From contig JAFGPD010000009.1 in assembly GCA_016926185.1 (NCBI GenBank), positions 1 through 39,657 of the forward strand: a stretch of DNA of 39,657 nt. Reading direction: 5' to 3'. How positions within the stretch are numbered: position 1 is the first letter of the stretch; each line of letters begins with the position of its first letter. Positions 2,135-20,054 of this stretch are shown here, piece after piece. The DNA is from Candidatus Woesebacteria bacterium (GTDB lineage: Bacteria; Patescibacteriota; Microgenomatia; UBA8517). Both the position numbers and the translations under genes were made by a program. The notes below the pieces were generated by a model that was not told the origin of the DNA, did no database searches, and saw only the letters and a program-made list of their open reading frames with translations.

Positions 2135-3355
2135 TTATTCGTACCTCAACGCTTCTATTGGTTCTAATTTTGCGGCTTTTTGTGCGGGATACCATCCGAA
2201 AAGTATTCCCACTCCAGCTGAAACACTAAAAGCTAAAATTATTGATTTTAAAGATATTACAAAAGGCAGATCCATATGATTGGTTATTACTGCTGAAACC
2301 GTTATTCCCAATATTGTCCCGATAATTCCGCCAATTAATGTGATCATCACTGCTTCTGTTAAAAATTGAGCTGTAATAATTTTTCTTTTTGCTCCCAGTG
2401 CTTTTCTTAGTCCAATCTCACGAGTCCTCTCAGTGACTGTAACTAGCATAATATTCATTATTCCAATACCTCCGACCACAAGTGAAATTGCAGCTATTCC
2501 GGACAGAAGTGTTGTAAATGTCCCTGTGACGGATGTGATCGTTCCGATTACGTCTTCCTGAGAAAATATCCTAAAATCAGCATCATTAGCACTTCTAATT
2601 TTATGTCGATTAAGAAGAACTTGTGTAATTTGATCTTCTGCCTGTTGCATCACGTTTTCACTGATCGCACTAACCGAAATTGAGCCGACATAATCAACAC
2701 CATAAAGAATTTTTTGTGCGGTAGTTAGTGGTATAAAAACACTTTCATCTGGATTGTTAAAACCCGTTCCACCTTTTGATGCGGTTACTCCAACAACTGT
2801 AAAGACTTGTGAATCGATACGTACTGTTTGACCTACAGGGTTTGAATTTTCTCCGAAAAGATCGGTCGCCACTGTCGTACCCAAAACTACAACCTTAGAA
2901 AGTCCGTCAACATGTCTTTGATTTATAAACGAGCCACTTGATAGATCAACACTTCTTACTGTCTGATATTCTGGTAAAACTCCAATAACTTGCGCATTAG
3001 TATTATTTCTACCTGCAATAATTTGACCTCTGGAGGAATATTCTGCTGATACACTTTCGATTGTTGTGATAAGAGTAGACTCTTTCAAAGCCTCGGCATC
3101 GGCTAAGGTAAGTGATTGTATACTCTCCCCCCCTCTAACCCCGCCGAAAGCTTGAGAACTAGGTGATATTGTGAGCAAGTTTGAGCCCAATGATTGAATT
3201 TGGTTAGTAATCGAGCTTTGTGTTGATTGACCCAAAGATACTAAAGCTATAACACTTCCGATACCAATAATAACCCCCAACATTGCAAGAAATGTTCTTG
3301 CTTTATTAAGAGTAAGTGTAAGTAAACTTTCTTCAATGAGTTCATGTGTTTCCAT
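2135..3355 (-). CDS. MacB/FtsX-type ABC transporter permease
   Basis: This 406-residue permease has the MacB plan. One N-terminal transmembrane helix (about residues 20-42, MLGVIIGIGSVIALVSLG) is followed by a large extracytoplasmic MacB_PCD domain and three C-terminal helices of the FtsX fold. The characteristic motif GIGIMNIMLV followed by TERTREIGLRKALGAK is present. It starts 2 bp after the ATPase gene, in the order adaptor, ATPase, permease. Such systems drive export of substrates from the outer membrane leaflet or periplasm by mechanotransmission; the substrate cannot be read from sequence. ATPase and permease are separate polypeptides, unlike fused E. coli MacB. Confidence 0.93.
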   Translation of the reverse strand: METHELIEESLLTLTLNKARTFLAMLGVIIGIGSVIALVSLGQSTQSSITNQIQSLGSNLLTISPSSQAFGGVRGGESIQSLTLADAEALKESTLITTIESVSAEYSSRGQIIAGRNNTNAQVIGVLPEYQTVRSVDLSSGSFINQRHVDGLSKVVVLGTTVATDLFGENSNPVGQTVRIDSQVFTVVGVTASKGGTGFNNPDESVFIPLTTAQKILYGVDYVGSISVSAISENVMQQAEDQITQVLLNRHKIRSANDADFRIFSQEDVIGTITSVTGTFTTLLSGIAAISLVVGGIGIMNIMLVTVTERTREIGLRKALGAKRKIITAQFLTEAVMITLIGGIIGTILGITVSAVITNHMDLPFVISLKSIILAFSVSAGVGILFGWYPAQKAAKLEPIEALRYE

Positions 3356-3357
3356 AT

Positions 3358-4074
3358 TTACTTTATAACTAATTTTTGCTTACCATTATGTCTATCTTCG
3401 TCAATTTCTCCATCTCTAATATGAATTATTCTTTTTGCATACTGCGCTATTTCTTCTTCGTGAGTGATCATAAGAATGGTGTTACCCTTTTTATTAATTT
3501 CTTGGAAAACTTCCATTATTTCTTCTGCTTGACGACTTGCAATATTTCCTGTCGGTTCATCGGCAAGAATAATACTCGGGTTCATACTCAATGCTCTTGC
3601 GATAGCAACCCTCTGCTGCTGACCACCCGACAACTGTCCCGGAGTGTGGTAAAGACGATCTCCCAACCCCACCATCTCAAGATATTTCTTTGCTCGTTTA
3701 ATTCTTTCCGTCTTTTCAACACCTCCATACATCATTGGTATCGAAACATTTTTAAGTGAAGTTGTTCTGGGAAGTAAGTTATAGAATTGAAAAACAAAGC
3801 CTATTTTTTCATTTCTAATATCAGCTAATTCATCTTCACTCAATTTTTCAACTTGCTTACCATCAAGGAAATATTCACCTGAGGTGGGTTTATCCAAAGC
3901 ACCTATTATATGCATCAGAGTGGATTTGCCCGAACCCGAAGGGCCCATTATTGCCAGAAATTCTCCTTTTTCTACGGAGAATGATATGTTTTGAAGGGCT
4001 TTAACCTCTATCTCTCCAGTTTTGTAAGTTTTTGAGATATTTGTTAACTCTATTAAATTCTTTGGAATGCTCAT
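3358..4074 (-). CDS. ABC transporter ATP-binding protein, MacB/LolD type
   Basis: This 238-residue ATPase carries Walker A GPSGSGKST (residues 44-52), the Q-loop region (FVFQFYNLLPRTT), signature LSGGQQQR, Walker B IILADEPT and the H-loop His in MITHEEE. The LLPRTT and SGGQQQRVAIARAL segments are typical of the LolD/MacB/FtsE subclass. It lies 8 bp downstream of the adaptor gene and 2 bp upstream of the permease, so the three are almost certainly one transcript and one complex at the cytoplasmic membrane. Confidence 0.95.
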   Translation of the reverse strand: MSIPKNLIELTNISKTYKTGEIEVKALQNISFSVEKGEFLAIMGPSGSGKSTLMHIIGALDKPTSGEYFLDGKQVEKLSEDELADIRNEKIGFVFQFYNLLPRTTSLKNVSIPMMYGGVEKTERIKRAKKYLEMVGLGDRLYHTPGQLSGGQQQRVAIARALSMNPSIILADEPTGNIASRQAEEIMEVFQEINKKGNTILMITHEEEIAQYAKRIIHIRDGEIDEDRHNGKQKLVIK

Positions 4075-6079: not shown

Positions 6080-6137
6080 TTATTCATGATTAGATGTTGA
6101 GGCTTGACCTGCAACGTGGCCTGTGCTGAGTGCTTTT
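6080..6137 (-). pseudogene. Duplicated 3' end of the HI0933-type flavoprotein gene
   Basis: Read on the minus strand this fragment encodes KALSTGHVAGQASTSNHE and then TAA. The intact flavoprotein at 7443-8693 ends KALSTGYVAGSFASMNTLS. At DNA level 6108-6137 and 7474-7503 match at 28 of 30 positions, with 19 consecutive identical bases. Upstream of this point (6138 onward) the similarity is lost, so only the last few codons are present. It is either the displaced original gene end left by an insertion, or the remnant of a tandem duplicate. Confidence 0.7.
6108..6137. repeat. 30-bp direct repeat, left copy
   Basis: This is the left member of a direct repeat pair (other copy 7474-7503, 28 of 30 identical) that brackets a two-gene cassette. 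Both copies read as the C-terminal codons of the flavoprotein on the minus strand. Confidence 0.75.
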
Positions 6138-6172
6138 AATAAATTAGATGCTTTGGGCGTAATTACAAGTTT

Positions 6173-6481
6173 TTATAGAAGAGTTAAACCAATTAAGTAC
6201 GATAGTAGATTTGTAATTATTGATAGAAATGCACTTTTCTTTTTGTTCAAAACAGGCAGGAATAAAAGTACTTCTGTAAAAATCACAACCAACTCAATTG
6301 ATAAATGTGAATAAGATAATGTTGAAAAATAATATGCCCAAGGATGCGTTATTATGTTTATGACAAAACTATATAAAAATATTCTAAAGTCACGAAGTAT
6401 GAAAAGTGTCAATAAAGATTCACTTATTAGTGTCAATAAAAGGTAAATTATGTATTTGTTACTGTAACTGAGGATTGTCAT
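6173..6481 (-). CDS. Small four-helix membrane protein, second gene of cassette
   Basis: This 102-residue protein is hydrophobic throughout, with four predicted transmembrane helices at about residues 10-29, 33-52, 60-78 and 82-102. Polar residues recur inside the helices (NIITHP, ELVVIFTE, SIITNLLSYLIG). That arrangement reminds me of an unnamed family of small membrane proteins seen in archaea and bacteria, but I cannot prove membership. Its start overlaps the 3' end of the secreted-protein gene by 23 bp, so the two are probably translated together and may form a complex. No function is known. Confidence 0.65.
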   Translation of the reverse strand: MTILSYSNKYIIYLLLTLISESLLTLFILRDFRIFLYSFVINIITHPWAYYFSTLSYSHLSIELVVIFTEVLLFLPVLNKKKSAFLSIITNLLSYLIGLTLL

Positions 6482-7367
6482 CTGGCTTTTCTGGATTATT
6501 TGTATTTATTATATGTTCGGCATTAACAATTCTTGATTGTTTCTTGATATGACCTTTTTGTGATTTTTTTCCTACGACAAAGCCTAATACACCTCCCGAA
6601 AAGAATAGAGAAAAACCAGCTGTGATTAGCCAATTAATGTCTAGTGAAGAATATAGATCATCATTGACAGCTGGGTCTTCTTTTTGGGGAGTTTTTGTAA
6701 TATTCAATTTTACTGTAGGGTATACATATTCTGTAGGTGTGGGCGTGATTTTTGGAGTTGTAAAAGGAGCATCAAGAACTTGATCAACAGTTAAACTTTC
6801 AACAAATGAATTGGCGATTTCTTTGTCATCGGTATATCTGATTATTGGATCAGAAACAGATATTATTAATTCATTATTCTCTTCATCTACACCTTCAAAT
6901 GTGACAATATAATCTTTTCGCATCAAATTGTTTGTGATTGAAACCACTTCATGTGTATGAGGAATTTCTGTTTTTGTAACTATGGCATTTTTATAAGCAT
7001 CAGAATTGCAATTTACAGAGTATGTTATGTTACCCTCTCCCCAGCTACCTATTTCTTTATGAATATCAGAAGTAAATATTTTAGAAATTGCAGCAGGATA
7101 AGAGTAACCCATACATTTTGATTCAGAACCGAAATTGCAGGCATCACCGGAGTTTAATAAATTAAAATCACGTTTTCCTTCACATTCGCCCCAATCTGCC
7201 ATTATTGGTTGAACGATCCAATAATCTGAAACGTTTTCCCATCCCTCAAATCTTACATATGAACCGATAGTTTTTTGATCATCTCTTAAAGCGTCAGCAT
7301 GAATATCAGATATATGTGATAGTAGAAGCGTTAATGTTAAAAGCAGAATGAAAATTATTTTATACAT
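6459..7367 (-). CDS. Secreted, C-terminally anchored protein of unknown function
   Basis: This 302-residue protein begins with a signal peptide (IIFILLLTLTLLLSHISDIHA). The extracellular part is about 220 residues, has four cysteines within about 75 residues (CEGKRDF, CNFGSESKC, VNCNSD) that could form disulfides, and ends in a Thr/Pro linker (TPKITPTPTEY). One transmembrane helix (about 245-265, WLITAGFSLFFSGGVLGFVVG) is followed by a basic cytoplasmic tail. I recognise no domain. It is the first gene of a two-gene unit with the four-helix protein and lies between the 30-bp direct repeats. Confidence 0.7.
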   Translation of the reverse strand: MYKIIFILLLTLTLLLSHISDIHADALRDDQKTIGSYVRFEGWENVSDYWIVQPIMADWGECEGKRDFNLLNSGDACNFGSESKCMGYSYPAAISKIFTSDIHKEIGSWGEGNITYSVNCNSDAYKNAIVTKTEIPHTHEVVSITNNLMRKDYIVTFEGVDEENNELIISVSDPIIRYTDDKEIANSFVESLTVDQVLDAPFTTPKITPTPTEYVYPTVKLNITKTPQKEDPAVNDDLYSSLDINWLITAGFSLFFSGGVLGFVVGKKSQKGHIKKQSRIVNAEHIINTNNPEKPDDNPQLQ

Positions 7368-7416
7368 ACGTAAATAAATGCTAGCATATTATGAACATCA
7401 TATACAATTTACGTAT
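7366..7416. promoter_or_regulatory. Long-spaced perfect inverted repeat at the cassette promoter
   Basis: Perfect 10-bp arms, ATACGTAAAT at 7366-7375 and ATTTACGTAT at 7407-7416, are separated by 31 bp. The left arm overlaps the start codon of the secreted-protein gene and the spacer contains the palindrome ATGCTAGCAT. A TTGTAT-N18-TAGCAT promoter for that gene can be drawn inside. The arms could bind a dimeric regulator, or be a cassette boundary feature. Confidence 0.4.
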
Positions 7417-7442
7417 AATATTTTTCTGCCAATAATATGAGA

Positions 7443-8693
7443 TTATGACAGTGTATTCATTGAAGCAAAACTGCCCGCAACGTAGCCTGTGCTGAGTGCT
7501 TTTGTGATATTGAATCCTCCCGATGGACCATCCAGACATATTATCTCTCCTGCAAAATAAAGCCCTTCTACTATTTTTGATCCCATCGTTCTTGAATCTA
7601 TCTCTTTAATATCTACTCCTCCGTGGGTGACAATTGATCTTTTGATCGATTCTACCCCTTCGATCTTAAACTCAAAATATTTCATGAATTTAATCAATGC
7701 ATCAAGCTGCTGTTTAGTTAAAGTTGAGCTTTGCTGATGCAGGTCAATGCCTGTCCAGCTGGCAGCATATAGTACAAGTGATCTGGGAAACAGTGAATTA
7801 AGAAGGCTCTTATACTCTTTCTTTGGGGTATCATTGATCTTTCTAATTATGCTTTGTCTTAAGGTTTTTTCATTGAGCTTCGGACGCAGATCGATTCTGC
7901 ATGTAACCTTTTTCCCCAGATTGAGATGTTCGTATACTGAACGTGAACACTTTAGGACAATAGGACCCGACAAACCATTGTGCGTAAAAAGCATCTCGCC
8001 GAACTCTTTTGAGAATATTTTCTCTTCTGAAGAAAAACTTATTTCAACGTTTTTAAGAGAAAGACCGGCTAATTCATTCACGTTCCTGTCTTTTGTAAGA
8101 AGTGGTGTAAGAGCCGGAATGGGGTCGATTATCTTGTGTCCAAAAGATCTTGCAAATTTATAACCGTCACCGGTTGAGCCGGTTTGAGGATATGACGCTC
8201 CGCCTGTTGCGATTATTATTTTTTTTGCACGAAAATCATTATTTTTTGTTCTGACTTTAAAGACATCCTTTTCTTTACTGATAGATCTAACTGGTGTGCT
8301 ATAAGAAATATGAACATCTTTATCCTTTAATTCTTTAAGCAGGCAGTTTAGGATATCTTGGGAATTGTCACTTTTTGGGAAAACTCTCTGTCCCCTTTCC
8401 TCTTTGAGTCTCACTCCTCTGCTTTCAAAAAAGTTAATAATATCTTTATTGGAAAATCTGCTAAGCGAGCCATAGAGGAATTTACCTAGACTTCCGAAAG
8501 CATCAACTATCTCATCAATTTCCTTGGTTGTGGTTACATTACATCTCCCCTTTCCGGTTAATAGCAACTTGACACCTGCAGAAGAATTCTTTTCCAAGAT
8601 CATCACATCATTATCATCATTTTTTGCACTGACCCCTGCCATCATACCGGCAGGACCGGCCCCAATTATCAATACATCGATACCCCTGTCCAT
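7443..8693 (-). CDS. HI0933/BaiN-family NAD(P)/FAD-dependent oxidoreductase
   Basis: The 416-residue protein starts with an FAD-binding dinucleotide fold (VLIIGAGPAGMMAG, residues 8-21), followed by LLLTGKGRCNVTTT, characteristic of the HI0933-like flavoproteins. The second FAD contact ATGGASYPQTGSTGDG and the C-terminal GLYFAGEIICLDGPSGGFN complete the family pattern. Related proteins reduce unsaturated substrates or have unknown substrates. The last 10 codons are duplicated at 6080-6137 beyond a two-gene cassette. The ATG at 8693 follows a TATAAT by 8 nt without any Shine-Dalgarno sequence. Confidence 0.92.
   Translation of the reverse strand: MDRGIDVLIIGAGPAGMMAGVSAKNDDNDVMILEKNSSAGVKLLLTGKGRCNVTTTKEIDEIVDAFGSLGKFLYGSLSRFSNKDIINFFESRGVRLKEERGQRVFPKSDNSQDILNCLLKELKDKDVHISYSTPVRSISKEKDVFKVRTKNNDFRAKKIIIATGGASYPQTGSTGDGYKFARSFGHKIIDPIPALTPLLTKDRNVNELAGLSLKNVEISFSSEEKIFSKEFGEMLFTHNGLSGPIVLKCSRSVYEHLNLGKKVTCRIDLRPKLNEKTLRQSIIRKINDTPKKEYKSLLNSLFPRSLVLYAASWTGIDLHQQSSTLTKQQLDALIKFMKYFEFKIEGVESIKRSIVTHGGVDIKEIDSRTMGSKIVEGLYFAGEIICLDGPSGGFNITKALSTGYVAGSFASMNTLS
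7474..7503. repeat. 30-bp direct repeat, right copy
   Basis: This is the right member of the pair with 6108-6137. It lies inside the coding sequence of the flavoprotein, over codons for KALSTGYVAG. In an insertion model this copy restores the gene's reading frame and stop. Confidence 0.75.
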
Positions 8694-17099: not shown

Positions 17100-20054
17100 T
17101 TATGTATCTTTTGATAGATATTTTCCTGTATATGAGATTTTTACTTTTTTAATTTCTTCTGGTGTGCCTTCGGCAATAACGTATCCCCCCTCATCTCCAC
17201 CTCCAGGACCAAGATCGATTATCCAATCAGCATTTTTAATGATATCCATATTATGCTCTATCAAAAATACACTATTTCCCTTGATCGCTAAAAGCTTAAG
17301 TACTTTTAGAAGTTTATCAAGATCAGCGAAGTGAAGACCTGTTGTTGGTTCATCTAGGATATATACAGTATCACCTGTAGCCTTTTTGCTTAATTCAGTT
17401 GCCAGTTTTACTCTTTGTGCTTCACCGCCCGAAAGGGTTGTTGCAGGTTGTCCTAACTCAATATAACCCAACCCTACTGCTTTTAAAGTTTCCAATTTTC
17501 TTATTATCTGCGGATGATTATGAAAGAACTCCAATGCATCTTCTACTGTCATATCTAATATATCTGAGATGTTTTTTCCTTTGTAATCTATCTCGAGAGT
17601 TTGGCTGTTATATCTTTTACCGTTGCATTGTTCGCAGTTTATCCAAATATCACTCATGAATTGCATTTCGATCTTATTTTGCCCTTGTCCCTGGCACTCT
17701 TCACATCTTCCACCCTTAACATTAAAGGAAAATCTACCCTTTTTATATCCTCTGGTTTTAGATTCACGCAAGTTTGCAAATACGTCCCTTATATCATCAA
17801 AAACTTTTGTATAAGTGGCAGGATTACTTCTGGGTGTTCTTCCTATAGGTGACTGATCGATCAATATCACCTTATCAATATTTTCCACACCTTCTATTGA
17901 TCTATGTTCTCCAGCTTGCTCTTTGTAACGACTGCTTATTTTGTTTTTGATCGCTTTATACAAGACATCAACTAGTAATGTTGACTTTCCGCTTCCGGAA
18001 ACTCCGGTTATTACGACCAGTTTACCAAGAGGGAAATCTACATTTATATTTTTTAGATTAAACTGATTGGCTCCAATAATTTTCAGGCTTTTTTTGTCAG
18101 ATCTCCCGTTCCCGTTAATTCCAAGGTCGCTTTGAATATTTTTCAGTCCTTTGAAACTGATCTTTTTCTTACCTGATAAATATTTTCCTGTAATTGAATC
18201 CTCTTCCTTGTAAAGATCTTTAGATGGTCCATTATAAACGACCTTCCCGCCATGGCTACCGGCACCAGGTCCAAAATCCACCACATAGTCTGATTGTTTT
18301 ATCATTTCTCTATCATGTTCAACAACAATAATTGTGTTCCCCAAATCTCTTAAATTCTTTAAAGTATCAATAAGCATTTGATTATCTTTAGCATGTAGTC
18401 CAATTGTCGGCTCATCAAGAACATATAAAACTCCAGTTAAACCAGAACCTATCTGGCTTGCAAGCCTTATCCTTTGAGATTCTCCTCCTGAGAGTGTTCC
18501 TGCCGGCCTGTCCAAAGTAAGGTAGTCAACACCAACAGCAATCAGAAATTTCAATCTACCAACGATCTCTTTGAGTATTAAATATGAGATATTTTTCTCT
18601 CTTTCATTTAGATCGGTATTTTTAGAAAGATCATCGAACCACTCAATTGCCTCTTTTATTGACAATTTTGTTATGTCGGAAATAGACCTTTTATTGATAG
18701 TCACCGATAAAGCTTCTTTTTTTAGTCTTGTCCCGTTGCATGAAGGGCAAATATTTTCCCTCATGAACTTTTCTATCTCCCCCCTGACCCAATCACTTTC
18801 GGTACTGCTATGTCTTTTTTCAAGTTCGGCAATTATTCCTGGAAATGTTTCTGTGATCGTAGTGACACTTCCCTGCCTATTTGTCCCGTTCACATAATAT
18901 GTTCTTTCCCCGGTACCATATAAAATAAGATCAATTTTATCTTCAGAGATATTTTTAAGAGGTATCCTTGGATCAATACCATTCTCCTCACAGACTTTCA
19001 GAAGTATTCTTGAGTACCATGTATCATGTTCAAACATACTGGAAAAAGGAATGATCGCTCCTTCAGTGATAGTCAGATCCTTTGCAAAAAGCGTTTCCGG
19101 TTCTACTTTTAGAATATTTCCAATTCCACCGCACTCTTTACATGCTCCATGGGGCGAATTGAAAGAAAAGCTTCGTGGCTCTATTTCTGGAAGAGATATA
19201 TTATCCTGCGGACACGCAAATCTTTCAGAATACATTGATTCTTTTATTTCTTTTGGTTTTTCGGGTATCTCGTAAGTTTTATCAAGGATCTCACCAAGCA
19301 TCACCAGACCTTCAGAAAGCTTGAGTGCTTGCTCTGCTGAATCTGTTATCCTGCTTTTCAGGTTCTTTTCATATATATTGTCTTTGAGTTTGTCTTTCTC
19401 GACACTGATTTTATCCACAATGACTTGGATATTGTGCTTATTGGTTTTTATAAGGACAAAGTCATCTGAAATATCTTTTACAATTCCGTCAATTCTCACT
19501 TGCGAAAAACCTTTTGCCTTTAAGTTGTCAAAAAGACTGCTGAACTCCCCCTTTTTATCTCTGACAATAGGTGAAAGGATCATGTATTTTTGGAGCTTTT
19601 TCTGGTTAGTTTTTATACTTTCAATGATGTTCTCAACGATTTGCTCTATTGACTGACTGGCAATCTCTCTTCCGCATACAGGACAATGGGGATGTCCGAT
19701 CCTTGCATAAAGCAGCCTCATATAATCATATATCTCAGTGATAGTACCTACTGTCGATCGAGGATTTTTGCTAGTTGTTTTCTGGTCGATTGAAATTGCA
19801 GGAGAAAGTCCTTCGATAAGATCAACATCCGGCTTTTCCATAACACCTAAAAACTGTCTAGCATATGTGCTTAGTGATTCAACATATCTCCTTTGACCTT
19901 CAGCATAGATAGTATCGTAAGCCAAAGAACTCTTACCGCTGCCTGAAACACCCGTAAATACGATCATTTCATTTTTTGGTATGGTGAGATCAACATTTTT
20001 CAGATTATGCTCTCTTGCCCCCTTTATCCTTATTTCGTTATTTTGTTTTTCCAT
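17100..20054 (-). CDS. uvrA: Excinuclease ABC subunit A
   Basis: The 984-residue UvrA is the damage-sensing ATPase of nucleotide excision repair. Two ABC modules are present: Walker A GVSGSGKSSL near residue 35 with signature LSGGESQRIRLASQ, and Walker A GVSGSGKSTLL with signature LSGGEAQRVKLATEL. Zinc-binding cysteine pairs are seen at CPVCGREI, CKECGG with the upstream CPQ, CPSCNG, and CEECQGQGQ with CEQCNGKRY. It is somewhat longer than E. coli UvrA (940). It heads the uvrA-transglutaminase-uvrC unit. An inverted repeat lies 22-45 bp upstream of its ATG. Confidence 0.97.
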   Translation of the reverse strand: MEKQNNEIRIKGAREHNLKNVDLTIPKNEMIVFTGVSGSGKSSLAYDTIYAEGQRRYVESLSTYARQFLGVMEKPDVDLIEGLSPAISIDQKTTSKNPRSTVGTITEIYDYMRLLYARIGHPHCPVCGREIASQSIEQIVENIIESIKTNQKKLQKYMILSPIVRDKKGEFSSLFDNLKAKGFSQVRIDGIVKDISDDFVLIKTNKHNIQVIVDKISVEKDKLKDNIYEKNLKSRITDSAEQALKLSEGLVMLGEILDKTYEIPEKPKEIKESMYSERFACPQDNISLPEIEPRSFSFNSPHGACKECGGIGNILKVEPETLFAKDLTITEGAIIPFSSMFEHDTWYSRILLKVCEENGIDPRIPLKNISEDKIDLILYGTGERTYYVNGTNRQGSVTTITETFPGIIAELEKRHSSTESDWVRGEIEKFMRENICPSCNGTRLKKEALSVTINKRSISDITKLSIKEAIEWFDDLSKNTDLNEREKNISYLILKEIVGRLKFLIAVGVDYLTLDRPAGTLSGGESQRIRLASQIGSGLTGVLYVLDEPTIGLHAKDNQMLIDTLKNLRDLGNTIIVVEHDREMIKQSDYVVDFGPGAGSHGGKVVYNGPSKDLYKEEDSITGKYLSGKKKISFKGLKNIQSDLGINGNGRSDKKSLKIIGANQFNLKNINVDFPLGKLVVITGVSGSGKSTLLVDVLYKAIKNKISSRYKEQAGEHRSIEGVENIDKVILIDQSPIGRTPRSNPATYTKVFDDIRDVFANLRESKTRGYKKGRFSFNVKGGRCEECQGQGQNKIEMQFMSDIWINCEQCNGKRYNSQTLEIDYKGKNISDILDMTVEDALEFFHNHPQIIRKLETLKAVGLGYIELGQPATTLSGGEAQRVKLATELSKKATGDTVYILDEPTTGLHFADLDKLLKVLKLLAIKGNSVFLIEHNMDIIKNADWIIDLGPGGGDEGGYVIAEGTPEEIKKVKISYTGKYLSKDT

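Follow-up and report, generated by a model that had tools for sequence, protein, structure and literature searches.

A 30-bp direct repeat at a flavoprotein gene end in Candidatus Woesebacteria and its likely origin in gene exchange

How does the end of a protein gene come to be repeated on the far side of two small genes? The question is raised by a locus in the window, as we call the whole 39,657-nucleotide stretch of Candidatus Woesebacteria DNA that was analysed (contig JAFGPD010000009.1 of assembly GCA_016926185.1), where part of the 3′ end of an HI0933-like flavoprotein gene recurs beyond a two-gene cassette (Table 1). The initial annotation had described two 30-bp repeats, which it read as the trace of an element inserted at the gene end or, alternatively, of an old tandem duplication followed by the loss of one copy. 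Sequence comparison within the window bears out the repeats as described, with 28 of 30 bases shared and 1,366 bp from start to start. The repeat is real and far above chance. Indeed, when the last 120 nt of the flavoprotein gene were matched against the 5 kb past its stop codon, the best 30-bp match was 28, while the best obtained in 60 dinucleotide shuffles of that flank was 22. A separate 39-bp direct repeat, non-coding and with one mismatch in its best 30 bp, is found near the left end of the contig (120-158 and 239-277).

Table 1. Features of the flavoprotein locus, in positions of the window
Feature	Position	Strand	Basis
Intact HI0933-like flavoprotein gene, 416 aa	7443-8693	-	PF03486, E=1.5e-85; TIGR00275, E=2.3e-138
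Right repeat copy, codons 398-407 (KALSTGYVAG) of the intact flavoprotein gene	7474-7503	-	
Tail of the intact gene behind the repeat, SFASMNTLS and stop	7443-7473	-	
Cassette gene 1, 302 aa; N-terminal signal peptide, Pro/Thr-rich linker, C-terminal TM helix	6459-7367	-	ORF
Cassette gene 2, 102-aa multi-TM protein	6173-6481	-	ORF
Inferred breakpoint, where the left copy loses likeness to the gene upstream (in gene direction)	6138		8/15 against 11-15/15 in orthologues
Left repeat copy, KALSTGHVAG, probable leftover of a second flavoprotein copy	6108-6137	-	sequence match; tblastx
Tail of the probable remnant behind the left copy, QASTSNHE and stop	6081-6107	-	

The repeat lies near the 3′ end of the gene without comprising its last codons, as had first been stated, and a different tail follows it in each copy. 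On the minus strand, the left copy reads KALSTGHVAGQASTSNHE and then a stop, and the right copy continues through the tail of the intact gene to the stop at 7443. Both copies do run into an in-frame stop, although a stop within nine codons is unremarkable in AT-rich DNA. The stretch 6095-6145 matches the end of the flavoprotein gene of a related genome, G002 (tblastx). The two mismatches within the core comprise one synonymous and one non-synonymous change, and the His that takes the position of Tyr in the left copy is also present in orthologues. In an ungapped register of 45 bp, the two copies are 80% identical, the additional 15 bp on the gene-body side agreeing at 8 positions.

A variable repeat at a gene end with its template downstream would be the layout of a diversity-generating retroelement (DGR), and the genome carries such a system. 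At L180 (G000:C11:22314-23018, G000 being the genome of the window), on another contig, a reverse transcriptase is followed by a template (~2817-2955) and a variable repeat (~3240-3390), and adenines of the template account for 20 of 22 mismatches. The flavoprotein repeat shares the gene-end geometry, but it spans just 30 bp, no reverse transcriptase is nearby, and its two mismatches, C/T and A/G, leave the remaining adenines unchanged. Given this mismatch pattern, so different from that of the genuine DGR pair, the DGR reading is scarcely credible here and was rejected.

The edges of the repeat carry most of the information on its origin. Identity falls from 28/30 to 8/30 just 3′ of the repeat (Fisher p=1.4e-7) and to 8/15 just 5′ of it (Fisher p=0.003). 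A natural control was provided by 62 flavoprotein orthologues from other phyla, in which pairs that share 27-29 of 30 bases over these ten codons often share just 10-15 of the next 30, and in which the tails past the VAG motif differ widely. The sharp 3′ edge can thus be accounted for by conservation that stops at the VAG motif and leaves the tails almost free, so that this edge appears to be the normal end of protein conservation and not an att boundary. The 15 nt upstream of the core behave differently. The same orthologue pairs retain 11-15 of these 15 positions, against 8 in the two copies of the window, which points to the 5′ edge, at ~6138, as the only true breakpoint. With a junction at this edge only, the left copy would be the tail that remained of another, truncated flavoprotein gene.

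This one-sided breakpoint bears on the proposal that a small element integrated site-specifically at the 3′ end of the gene and supplied a replacement tail, its integrase having since been lost or acting in trans. Integration into a gene is familiar from islands that target tRNA genes and from e14, which integrates into icd. The geometry of the locus fits, the cassette has a low GC content and is missing from relatives, and two tyrosine recombinases are encoded in the genome, the nearest integrases being on other contigs. However, as had been noted from the outset, no integrase is present; the cassette, which holds two ORFs only, contains no integrase, other recombinase or mobility gene, and its flanks are free of an integrase as well. 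The core also shows little dyad symmetry, and the search for further copies that the initial annotation proposed came back empty, since none was found elsewhere in the 1.11-Mb draft genome or in 50 genomes of the family, and no exact match was found in viral contigs. SpyCI in mutL (PMC4129442) is likewise an insert flanked on each side by homology to the gene end, yet islands of that type have their own integrase, further element genes and a recurrent attachment site, none of which is seen here. Altogether, integration at an attachment site is quite improbable, and what stands of the original proposal is that the cassette looks added. The genome also carries a dispersed ~22-bp repeat (TGTGCTTGCACTGAGCAAAGCG-like) clustered around tRNA genes (L111 870-1110; L121 2479-2667 and 4930-4990), to which the 30-bp core shows no real similarity.

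The two genes between the copies are, as first described, a secreted-protein gene and a membrane-protein gene, the start of the second overlapping the first by 23 bp. Neither protein matched Pfam or NCBIfam, and neither gave a convincing match to PHROG. No convincing relative of the 302-aa protein was found in 374 genomes of the class, GTDB contigs or viral contigs, and no relative of the 102-aa protein was found in 57 genomes of the order. Weak matches to the 302-aa protein, which fell mostly on its C-terminal linker and TM part, were dismissed, as was a 28-bp match of the cassette DNA in the related genome G044 (L224), which is AT-rich and unrelated; the structure model of the 302-aa protein was too poor for use (pLDDT 37). 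The GC content of the cassette is 30.8%, compared with a mean of 37.1% (s.d. 3.1), which corresponds to the 1.2 percentile of 1.3-kb windows. This low GC content, the absence of the cassette from the two other genomes with the flavoprotein gene and the lack of relatives of its proteins make it an apparent addition, and it is probably a new acquisition.

The HI0933-like gene itself is rare, being present in only three of the 50 genomes of the family that were compared for this locus (that of the window, G002 and G044), a comparison whose closest level is the family and not the genus. TIGR00275, which the 416-aa protein matches, denotes an aminoacetone oxidase family FAD-binding enzyme, and the G002 orthologue is 65% identical. 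Each of the three carriers has a single full copy, that of G044 being divided between two contig ends. To the right of the gene, all three share the order uvrA, transglutaminase-like, uvrC-like and ABC-substrate protein genes. Directly after it, G002 has a convergent Obg gene and G044 a convergent glycosidase-like gene; the comparison with relatives that had been called for shows both other carriers to be free of the cassette and of the second tail. Since synteny breaks at the 3′ flank of the gene in all three genomes, the DNA to the left of 6108, towards a cold-shock gene, cannot be taken as its ancestral neighbour. In the genome of the window, Obg is encoded on a separate contig (L122), where a 42-bp repeat precedes each of two separate minus-strand genes (17261-17302 and 18858-18899) and may serve both as a regulatory site.

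How, then, did a second flavoprotein end arise? The main rival to the reading that we favour is that the flavoprotein gene was tandemly duplicated, perhaps together with the cassette genes, and that all but the last ~60 bp of the second copy was then deleted. The two copies are on the same strand and in the right order, tandem paralogues exist in the genome of the window, and leftovers of local duplications are found in relatives (L127 in G044; L143 and L151 in G008). A recent duplicate, however, would be expected to share the tail as well as the core, yet identity drops at once from 28/30 to 8/30, and a dead old duplicate would be expected to decay evenly, which the non-uniform similarity (by the same Fisher test) contradicts. 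What remains is a second copy that stayed functional for long, whereas one full copy is found in each of the three carriers. Duplication and deletion are, in our estimation, unlikely to be the explanation. The alternative offered in the initial annotation came closer than integration in that it invoked the leftover of a second copy, but a diverged homologue is the more likely source of this copy than a simple tandem duplicate. The shortness of the remnant precludes a tree, and phylogeny therefore cannot separate a xenologue from an old paralogue.

We therefore consider, with moderate confidence, that ~6081-6137 is what gene exchange left of a second flavoprotein copy, namely its truncated 3′ end, with two new genes trapped between it and the intact gene. 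As in a gene-replacement scar, the truncated end lies beside the intact gene and on the same strand. Under this gene-exchange reading, incoming DNA from a related lineage would have carried all or the 3′ part of a flavoprotein gene, followed by the 302-aa and 102-aa genes. On one side, it would have been joined by homologous recombination either upstream of the resident flavoprotein gene or inside it and, on the other side, by an illegitimate join inside the last ~60 bp of the resident gene, at ~6138. The tail of the resident gene, which before the event would have ended in ...GHVAGQASTSNHE, would thereby have been stranded 1.37 kb downstream as a scar. Such a route of homologous plus illegitimate recombination, like its timing and its donor, is what we infer from the layout of the locus. 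Natural transformation is a plausible path of entry. The genome has a ComEA/ComEC uptake locus, and Patescibacteria, among which its size and gene content would probably place it, are reported to be competent and to trade genes chiefly with one another (PMC12455944).

Is this layout peculiar to the flavoprotein gene? Gene ends were scanned in the genome of the window over stretches totalling about half of it, which revealed further gene-end copies, and a protein-level test was applied to three genomes, using 35-aa termini and counting copies outside long ORFs. The latter test gave 22 non-ORF copies of termini, 21 on the same strand and one on the opposite strand, compared with 4 in a reversed-peptide control; repeat proteins or tandem paralogues account for part of the 21. 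Peptides from the middle of genes were copied less often than termini, with 4 copies in the three genomes at a slightly lower cutoff. In a 250-kb sample of E. coli K-12, a small and only suggestive control, matches occurred only in H-repeat/transposase genes and rRNA.

Individual cases resemble the flavoprotein locus closely. On G000:C22 (L158, 4284-6969), a 389-aa gene precedes a 425-aa gene on the opposite strand, behind which comes the diverged tail of a copy of the first gene, reading KVW-RDGEERILSATLSEFSE before a stop (also given as IKIKVWRDGEERILSATLSEFSE before a stop). In G008, a 382-aa gene separates a PGK-like gene from a diverged version of its tail, MLEFLSKKNLSGID (L145, 2364-4503), and the intact superoxide dismutase gene has a diverged copy of its tail 48 bp downstream (L156, 4351-5093). 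Truncated heads are found as well, with the first 21 codons of dinB (G000:C9, L111 8459-8575) and the first 12 codons of mreB (G000:C2, L104 12565-12712) each copied just upstream of the intact gene and with synonymous differences from it. Synonymous and non-synonymous changes number 6 and 2 in the dinB copy, 8 and 5 at L158, and 7 and 3 at L145, and this mainly synonymous divergence indicates that the copies diverged as working genes before they were truncated. The common pattern is an intact gene accompanied, on the same strand, by the short cut end of a diverged homologue, with or without genes between them. The flavoprotein layout thus apparently recurs at unrelated genes in this genome and in a relative represented by one contig. 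The scar loci share no sequence with one another, and some have only ~50-100 bp between the copies, which does not fit the action of one recombinase. In contrast, cut ends on the same strand at loci that share no sequence fit one homologous and one illegitimate side within the gene end.

These further loci also bear on whether the arrangement could be an assembly artefact, in which the contig was joined to the flavoprotein tail of another strain. The draft genome comprises 57 contigs, and strain mixtures could yield gene-end copies at short spacing. However, the two copies carry two mismatches, their length falls short of the usual overlap in an assembly, the sequence contains no Ns, and scars of the same type occur in G008, which is a single 1.08-Mb contig. 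An artefact is thus very improbable.

The kind of event considered here is already known, and the flavoprotein scar is another instance of it. In Vibrio, the replacement of T6SS effectors shifts the 3′ end of the old effector gene back, for which homology-facilitated illegitimate recombination has been proposed (PMC5361080). As in those clusters, new genes lie behind a conserved gene whose old 3′ end has been displaced downstream on the same strand, and no integrase was found. The Vibrio loci, however, consist of toxin and immunity genes, including orphan immunity genes, that are under obvious selection and were compared across many strains, whereas the present locus comprises a metabolic flavoprotein gene and cassette genes without an assigned family, compared at the family level. 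Small variable segments, or dimorphic loci, of bacterial species have likewise been ascribed to illegitimate recombination assisted by homology (PMC2884548). They too are short non-mobile segments exchanged at gene borders, but they were defined by multi-strain alignment, while the flavoprotein locus is defined by one genome. A literature search for gene-end scars under that name yielded nothing for bacteria.

Taken alone, this locus mainly offers a correction, in that direct repeats at a gene end need not signal an integrated island, because a sharp edge can simply reflect where protein conservation stops. Should scars of this type prove systematic, they would mark which core genes have been exchanged and where the junctions lie, even in draft genomes without a sequenced sister strain, and they would provide a way to measure homologous plus illegitimate recombination in uncultured bacteria with small genomes. 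We raise only tentatively, and with some doubt, the broader idea that in this family of ultra-small bacteria core genes regularly gain one or two new neighbours through recombination in their first or last ~60 bp, which leaves diverged scars. If this were true, the scars would be a readable record of how short segments are exchanged in reduced genomes that lack mobile elements.
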